A DNA stretch of 64,000 nt from Streptomyces griseochromogenes (GTDB lineage: Bacteria; Actinomycetota; Actinomycetes; Streptomycetales; Streptomycetaceae), in the NCBI RefSeq assembly GCF_001542625.1, contig NZ_CP016279.1, positions 2,604,001 through 2,668,000 on the forward strand, given 5' to 3'. A program made the translations under genes and the position numbers. Under the pieces are notes generated by a model. That model was not told the origin of the DNA and did not search any database. It saw only the letters and a list, made by a program, of their open reading frames with translations. Positions 43,187 through 43,283 of this stretch are shown here, one piece after another (position 1 is the stretch's first letter; each line of letters opens with the position of its first letter).

Positions 43187-43283
43187 TGGCGGAGAGGGCA
43201 GGATTCGAACCTGCGTGGGCCGTTACCGGCCCGACCTAGAGGCGTGCTCATGGTCCCCGATCAGCCACTCCGGGCACCTCTCC
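43187..43283 (-). tRNA. Class II serine-type tRNA with non-canonical anticodon arm
   Basis: 97 nt including encoded CCA. Acceptor GGAGAGG/CCTCTCC (7 bp), discriminator G, D arm CCCG/CGGG with the GG pair in GAGTGGCTGAT, T arm GCAGG-TTCGAAT-CCTGC (all canonical) and a long variable arm GGGCCG-GTAA-CGGCCC (6-bp stem), as used by seryl-tRNA synthetase. The anticodon arm is abnormal: 21 nt from ACCAT to TAGGT instead of 17, best folded as ACC-AT-GAG, 5-base loop CACGC, CTC-TA-GGT. No 7-base loop with a 5-bp stem can be drawn. It is therefore unlikely to decode. Anticodon unassigned. Confidence 0.8.

Follow-up and report, generated by a model that had tools for sequence, protein, structure and literature searches.

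The window, by which we mean the whole 64,000-nucleotide stretch of Streptomyces griseochromogenes DNA that was analysed, contains a small tRNA-like gene that is divergent from an aminoacyl-tRNA transferase gene and lies upstream of a SARP-family regulator gene (Table 1). VlmA-type azoxy clusters have been described as VlmA plus VlmH, with VlmB, VlmO and VlmR encoded nearby (PMC9379638, as excerpted); from that set the transferase and flavin reductase are clear in the host cluster, the VlmH-like and VlmB-like matches are weak, and the VlmO-like protein is placed by position only. Two other seryl-tRNA synthetase (SerRS) matches are present in the host genome, and they are 38% and 37% identical to the cluster SerRS. 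A first-pass annotation of this DNA had proposed that a serine-type tRNA that probably does not decode adjoins a transferase gene in a cluster with its own SerRS gene, and both of these genes are indeed there. Upstream of the cluster, the window also encodes a fused FAD monooxygenase and old-yellow-enzyme type protein (32065-34326).

Table 1. The tRNA-like gene, the putative operators and the surrounding cluster genes, in window positions.
Feature	Position	Strand	Basis or remark
tRNA-Ser-like gene, acceptor stem to discriminator G73	43190..43283	-	102.2 bits with family model
Encoded CCA end	43187..43189	-	sequence reading
Aberrant 21-nt anticodon arm (positions 27-43)	43234..43254	-	without U33-containing 7-nt loop
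Long variable arm, 6 bp, GUAA loop	43217..43232	-	serine-type feature
SARP-type operator of tRNA-like gene	43325..43355	-	TCAG repeats 11 nt apart; -10-like CACTGT 8 nt after last heptamer
SARP-type operator	42039..42069	-	65 bp upstream of carboxyl transferase gene
SARP-type operator	61117..61147	-	94 bp upstream of aldehyde dehydrogenase-type gene
Carboxyl transferase gene	40430-41974	-	
AfsR/SARP-family regulator, downstream of tRNA-like gene	42103..42888	-	BTAD and Trans_reg_C domains
VlmA-type aminoacyl-tRNA transferase, divergent from tRNA-like gene	43471..44478	+	PF09924
Fatty acid desaturase of cluster	44949..46061	+	
Extra seryl-tRNA synthetase, VlmL-type	48840..50117	-	TIGR00414 above cut-off
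VlmB-like protein	54274..55242	-	weak R2-like oxidase match below model cut-off; named by analogy with PMC9379638 (as excerpted)
Flavin reductase, VlmR-like	55251..55793	-	PF01613
Small protein, putatively VlmO/Ady6-like	55790..56323	-	no family match; position only
Class-III aminotransferase	56830..58125	-	
Acyl-CoA dehydrogenase-like flavin monooxygenase, VlmH-like	58265..59407	-	weak family matches below cut-offs
Aldehyde dehydrogenase-type gene	59440-61023	-	

Read on the minus strand from 43283 to 43190, the window copy has a 7-bp acceptor stem (GGAGAGG/CCUCUCC), a D arm with GG, a T arm and G73, and sequence reading and the cloverleaf fold together confirm the earlier description of these parts, the CCA end and the 6-bp variable arm as intact. 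An encoded CCA is found in a minority of family copies (27 of 138). The cloverleaf is the minimum-energy fold of the window copy (z = -3.14 against 200 shuffled sequences, one of which folded equally well). The anticodon arm had been said to be 21 nt long and incapable of forming a 5-bp stem with a 7-nt loop, and this is correct: two 3-bp helices, ACC/GGU and GAG/CUC, are separated by a 2x2 internal loop and closed by CACGC, a loop of 5 nt. Nor did a covariance model reveal a normal anticodon loop, since the Rfam tRNA model (cmscan) left the arm of the window copy unaligned and gave it 28.1 bits, a narrow miss of the 29-bit gathering cut-off. ARAGORN called the window copy tRNA-Leu(GAG) and gave other copies discordant calls or none. 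For annotation practice this means that the two finders tried missed genes of this family, scored them below cut-off or assigned them discordant anticodons.

BLAST with the window copy found eight full-length copies, 84-100% identical, in the 10.76 Mb, single-contig host genome, one in the cluster and seven dispersed (a partial ninth match of 66 nt at 79% was left out of this set). Of the dispersed copies, six fall outside the genes predicted by a simple caller and the seventh runs over the end of one; their neighbours are unrelated, and no shared neighbour was evident among these predictions. None of the eight is among the host's 75 Rfam tRNA matches. Ordinary tRNA-Ser genes were taken from those host tRNA matches longer than 80 nt (12 of the 75, plus one short match), and there are five of them (GCU twice, UGA, CGA and GGA) with acceptor stems that differ from that of the element. 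All five pass a test for a 5+7+5 anticodon arm with U33, a serine anticodon and 4-5 stem pairs and, under standard wobble, they cover all serine codons. An ordinary tRNA with a misread arm was rejected on the basis of cmscan, ARAGORN, folding and the comparison with these five decoding tRNA-Ser. The first-pass annotation had described a single element; that element is real, and beyond it lie this dispersed multi-copy set in the host and a family that spans most of the transferase lineages sampled (below). Tandem arrays (below) and dispersed copies suggest a demand for dose.

Comparison of the eight host copies shows no variation at the 26 sites of the T arm and 3' acceptor strand; 3 of the 29 sites in the 5' acceptor strand and D arm vary, as do 18 of the 40 in the anticodon and variable arms. 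Ten copies in a second genome (G003) give identical counts for the first two regions (0 of 26 and 3 of 29) and 31 of 43 for the third. Column entropy in an alignment (A2) of 59 selected copies is 0.29 bits for the D arm, 1.01 for the variable arm and 1.57 for the distal part of the anticodon arm, and the acceptor and T-arm values (0.01 and 0.04 bits) carry no weight because all 59 rows were picked by an exact T-arm plus 3' acceptor pattern and a fixed 5' acceptor. The model searches and the within-genome copy sets are free of this selection, though the family model was built from A2; copies containing N were left out, and the copy at locus L042 is cut by a contig end. The 118 distinct family-model matches have the GGAGAGG/CCUCUCC acceptor in 110 cases, one of two T arms (one loop base apart) in 109, and G at the last position in 117, the remaining one being cut off by a contig end. 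Over 119 distinct aligned rows, pair 1-72 is GC in 117 and pair 2-71 in 118, the variable stem is 98.9% paired, and 12 of 23 pairs, including acceptor pair 7-66 and the closing anticodon-arm pairs, have changed on both sides. Double-changed cells number 70 in these rows versus 13.2 in shuffles (0 of 500 shuffles were as high) in an alignment that leans towards structure because it was fitted to the family model, and two of the rows (L260 and the second L244 copy), with scores of only about 60 bits, could be ordinary tRNA. The idea that the charging parts are kept while the decoding arm is free to vary is thus borne out by the varying-site counts in two genomes and by the 118 distinct matches. 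A decaying pseudogene or chance repeat is rejected on the within-genome constraint and compensatory change.

The anticodon arms of the 118 distinct matches are 13-33 nt long, and 111 of them, taken in isolation, have a loop of 3-5 nt. Eight have a 17-nt arm, two of these eight have U33 (with CUU and CUA), and none of the 118 has a serine anticodon with U33 in a 17-nt arm in register. When any register is allowed, a 17-mer with U33 and 4-5 stem pairs can be found in six of the 59 aligned copies, and in one of these (L065, out of register) it has GCU. The CUA is that of a Salinispora copy (L082:9735-9821) in a formally canonical 5+7+5 arm, which would make it an amber-reading serine tRNA if it decodes; a 7-bp hairpin with a 3-nt loop is an equally possible fold.

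SARP promoters have been described as heptamer direct repeats with 4-bp spacers located 8 bp upstream of the -10 element (PMC7040171, as excerpted). The sequence before the copies matches this description: TCAG repeats 11 nt apart are followed by a -10-like hexamer and then by a conserved stretch of ~35 nt (the 8-nt gap to CACTGT was read in the window copy, L001, only). The pattern TCAGN7TCAGN7YGNCANNNT has 11 exact matches in the host genome and its reverse has none. Seven of the 11 are upstream of tRNA-like copies (seven of the eight; the eighth is without TCAG repeats), as expected because the pattern was written from the copies themselves; of the other four, two are before cluster genes in the window, one is before a gene of lipid-kinase-like, VlmJ-like type located 11 kb beyond the window, and one is elsewhere. 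This last match (G000:C1:7350449-7350479, L255), the sole one outside the cluster and the copies, is 5' of an ORF that by eye is phosphofructokinase-like. In the family at large, TCAG-N7-TCAG occurs within 160 nt upstream of 104 of 109 leading copies, which are related and so are not independent events, versus 1.9% of random windows from the same loci, and none of 29 tandem downstream copies has SARP-type repeats within 160 nt upstream. At L066, L075, L104, L110, L067, L259 and other loci, 2-5 copies stand in tandem, spaced about 94-156 nt apart.

A covariance model made from the 59 copies gave the family at least 73 bits and the next matches listed at most 58 bits, with two matches between (64.8 bits in G298 and 60.3 bits in G158) in genomes that also have family copies. 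By this model, run on the same-genus genomes with stricter filters that can lose weak matches, the family is present in 51 of 392 genomes, and the transferase (E <= 1e-30) is present in 81 of the 392. Both are found in 50 genomes, the family alone in 1, the transferase alone in 31 and neither in 310 (Fisher p 2e-40), so that the transferase frequency is 50/51 in family genomes versus 31/341 in the others. The family-only genome (G184) does carry a distant transferase (36-40% identical) 2.4 kb from its copy and a SARP gene alongside. A class-wide draw of 394 genomes including the host gave family matches of at least 70 bits in five, all five with the transferase, and a sixth match (G665, 60.9 bits, 75% complete) without it. 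When 53 transferase loci were examined, the element was inside the fetched stretch in 40, and 27 whole genomes (those of the 13 remaining loci and 14 more) had family copies in 25; the two negative genomes, those of L050 (whose transferase is close to the end of a contig) and L068, hold only weak matches at the level of ordinary tRNA. Sixteen of the 31 transferase-only genomes were viewed at the locus (17 transferase loci), and the other 15 include ten with 40-46% identity. Three loci (L205, L207 and L208) have a transferase (61-63% identical) and a SARP gene, with no element and no cluster-type SerRS.

Cluster-type SerRS, defined as 57% identity or more, was found in 29 of the 51 family genomes. 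Of the other genomes, 29 were searched, 22 that have the transferase and 7 that do not, and none has this SerRS. Since 22 of 51 family genomes are without it, the cluster SerRS as an obligate partner is rejected, charging in those 22 would fall to another SerRS, and the tRNA-like gene is more constant than the extra SerRS. Fourteen of 72,556 plasmid records match the element and 13 match the transferase, and because several are near-identical and some overlap the genome scan, these are not an independent sample. Of the Streptomyces plasmid records, 11 have the transferase and each of these also matches the element (four over only 33-49% of the query), and three plasmid records match the element without the transferase; for two of these (L061 and G133) the same-strain chromosome appears to hold the transferase. 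The plasmid transferases of one Paraburkholderia and one Embleya record are without an element match. A VlmA-type transferase homologue (46% identity) with no element match is at 879191-880096 of NC_010625.1, a Paraburkholderia phymatum megaplasmid. A phage origin was rejected, no match being seen in 50,697 phage records at E 1e-5.

In a transferase tree of 92 rows, 14 element-negative loci form one supported clade, and the element presence label changes 5 times versus 17.7 in shuffles. Neither the element (0/14) nor cluster-type SerRS (0/14) was found for this clade, in the fetched stretch or in the genome, and a PF04072 methyltransferase homologue is present at 11 of the 14 loci versus 0 of 73 other loci, which differ in length. 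The authors of the azodyrecin work reported a methyltransferase, Ady1, and no aminoacyl-tRNA synthetase, and proposed alanyl-tRNA from the cell pool as donor (PMC9379638, in its excerpted text); the serine-type element is therefore absent from a group whose donor is not believed to be serine. Azodyrecin (ady) clusters resemble the window cluster in having a VlmA-type transferase, a flavin reductase and an aminotransferase (L211), but the azodyrecin-type clade differs from it in having neither element nor SerRS and in the Ady1-like methyltransferase gene at 11 of its 14 loci. Further element-negative loci outside this clade are L205, L207, L208, L050 and L068 (above).

Anatomy, the constraint pattern, co-occurrence with the transferase and operator sharing are all seen here. 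The best explanation for them, to which we assign a probability of about 85%, is that the element is a decoding-dead, pathway-regulated tRNA-Ser that would supply azoxy synthesis with its own seryl-tRNA pool. The SARP-type regulator encoded alongside would switch on the element together with the azoxy operons and six of the seven dispersed copies; a SerRS, the cluster's own where present and otherwise another of the cell, would charge the element through its acceptor stem, G73 and long variable arm; and the VlmA-type transferase would move serine from the element to an alkyl hydroxylamine. The resulting seryl-tRNA pool would be reserved for antibiotic synthesis and kept out of translation because the predicted anticodon arm cannot read codons. 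Serine identity is reported to lie in the variable arm, G73 and acceptor pairs G1-C72 and G2-C71, independently of the anticodon (PMC9976931, as excerpted), so the element should be chargeable, and VlmA is described as transferring serine from seryl-tRNA to hydroxylamine (PMC12945691, as excerpted). We infer transcription, charging, transfer and exclusion from the ribosome from the sequences, and we file the element as a presumptive tRNA-Ser by its charging features and not as a decoding tRNA-Ser. The earlier suggestion of a dedicated, non-decoding serine donor is thus strongly favoured by the constraint pattern, the transferase co-occurrence, the azodyrecin-type absence and the shared operators.

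A more demanding form of this explanation, which we hold at slightly better than even odds, is an orthogonal channel in which decoding-dead tRNA-Ser genes across the genome are under the SARP-type operator, along with an extra SerRS and a transferase that prefers the element, thereby making the pool private. If true, purifying selection would be maintaining charging in a natural tRNA lineage that has given up decoding. VlmA has reportedly been studied with ordinary tRNA-Ser, so the transferase may not need the element.

Could the element instead be a SARP-switched regulatory RNA with a tRNA-like fold that acts by base pairing or protein binding and is not an amino acid donor? The conserved ~35 nt before the tRNA part and the element's own SARP-type promoter would suit such an RNA, and a tRNA-like element within a regulatory RNA has been proposed for Bacillus cereus (PMC3399842, as excerpted). 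However, variation is greatest in the most exposed loop, the acceptor, T arm and G73 that charging and tRNA enzymes need are kept, and the distribution follows the seryl transferase and leaves out the azodyrecin-type clade, so we consider this unlikely. It is quite improbable that the element is a tRNA-Ser donor for a different or additional pathway step, or titrates SerRS or EF-Tu: the family does also adjoin a transferase only about 36% identical (L222 and L223), but that neighbour is still a relative of the same transferase with a SARP gene present, and co-occurrence is closer with the transferase than with cluster-type SerRS. A decoding tRNA with an unusual arm (a frameshift or nonsense suppressor, or a reader of a rare codon), for which the CUA and CUU arms and the six copies with some U33 17-mer (above) might speak, is very improbable given that 116 of the 118 distinct sequences lack a 17-nt arm with U33, that arm lengths range so widely, that ARAGORN anticodons are discordant among copies of one genome, and that the serine codons are already served by five normal genes. 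Decaying tRNA pseudogenes or hitchhiking repeats, which would account for the loss of a decoding arm and for multiple dispersed copies beside unrelated genes outside the cluster, can be dismissed with equal firmness in view of the invariant 3' halves in both genomes while the arms differ, the compensatory changes and the retained operators.

A decoding-dead serine donor of the kind favoured here has its nearest known counterpart in the non-proteinogenic tRNA-Gly isoacceptors of Staphylococcus aureus, which are thought to serve the non-ribosomal transferases (FemXAB) that build the pentaglycine bridge and to escape translation, an escape attributed to the weakness of two EF-Tu-binding pairs, A49-U65 and A51-U63, and to an altered G18G19 (PMC4052509, as excerpted). 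Both kinds are extra to the decoding set; as far as the excerpted account goes, the element differs in keeping the D-loop GG (by reading of aligned copies) and losing the anticodon arm instead, and also in being clustered with its transferase, having SARP-type operators and being dispersed. The element has A51-U63 in 118 of 119 rows and G49-C65 in 117 of 119; the ordinary host tRNA-Ser have, by eye, G51-C63 in four of five and A51-U63 in one. The valanimycin system (VlmL SerRS, VlmA transferase and VlmI SARP) is alike in its kind of transferase, its extra SerRS, its SARP and its flavin reductase, and the VlmJ-like gene behind the same operator in the host genome adds to the likeness. The excerpted description of that system mentions no tRNA gene, and the same 2014 review gives as unknown how Ser-tRNA is diverted from translation into valanimycin synthesis (PMC4052509); a separate tRNA incapable of decoding would be a simple proposed answer to the question as that excerpt puts it. 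The pseudo-tRNA tRNA-Other of B. cereus is likewise a tRNA-like gene that does not serve translation, but it was proposed to act within a larger regulatory RNA at a genomic island, and no transferase partner is named in the excerpted text (PMC3399842). We found no description of a tRNA such as the element in the open-licence papers searched. If the proposal is true, the element would offer an example from nature of a tRNA released from the genetic code, and would flag azoxy pathways that use serine in genome sequences. It would also be a part that transfers of such clusters to other hosts should include, and an off-the-shelf tRNA that may accept its amino acid yet stay out of translation.

Another odd tRNA-like gene was seen at L018 and L019 (about 1501-1575, minus strand), for which ARAGORN gives a 4-nt anticodon, ctga. 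It is present in at least two same-genus genomes, with weak matches in further genomes, and in both loci it is accompanied by a promoter-like TTGACC upstream and a predicted 457-aa ORF. It is possibly a quadruplet-reading tRNA or a further non-decoding one.
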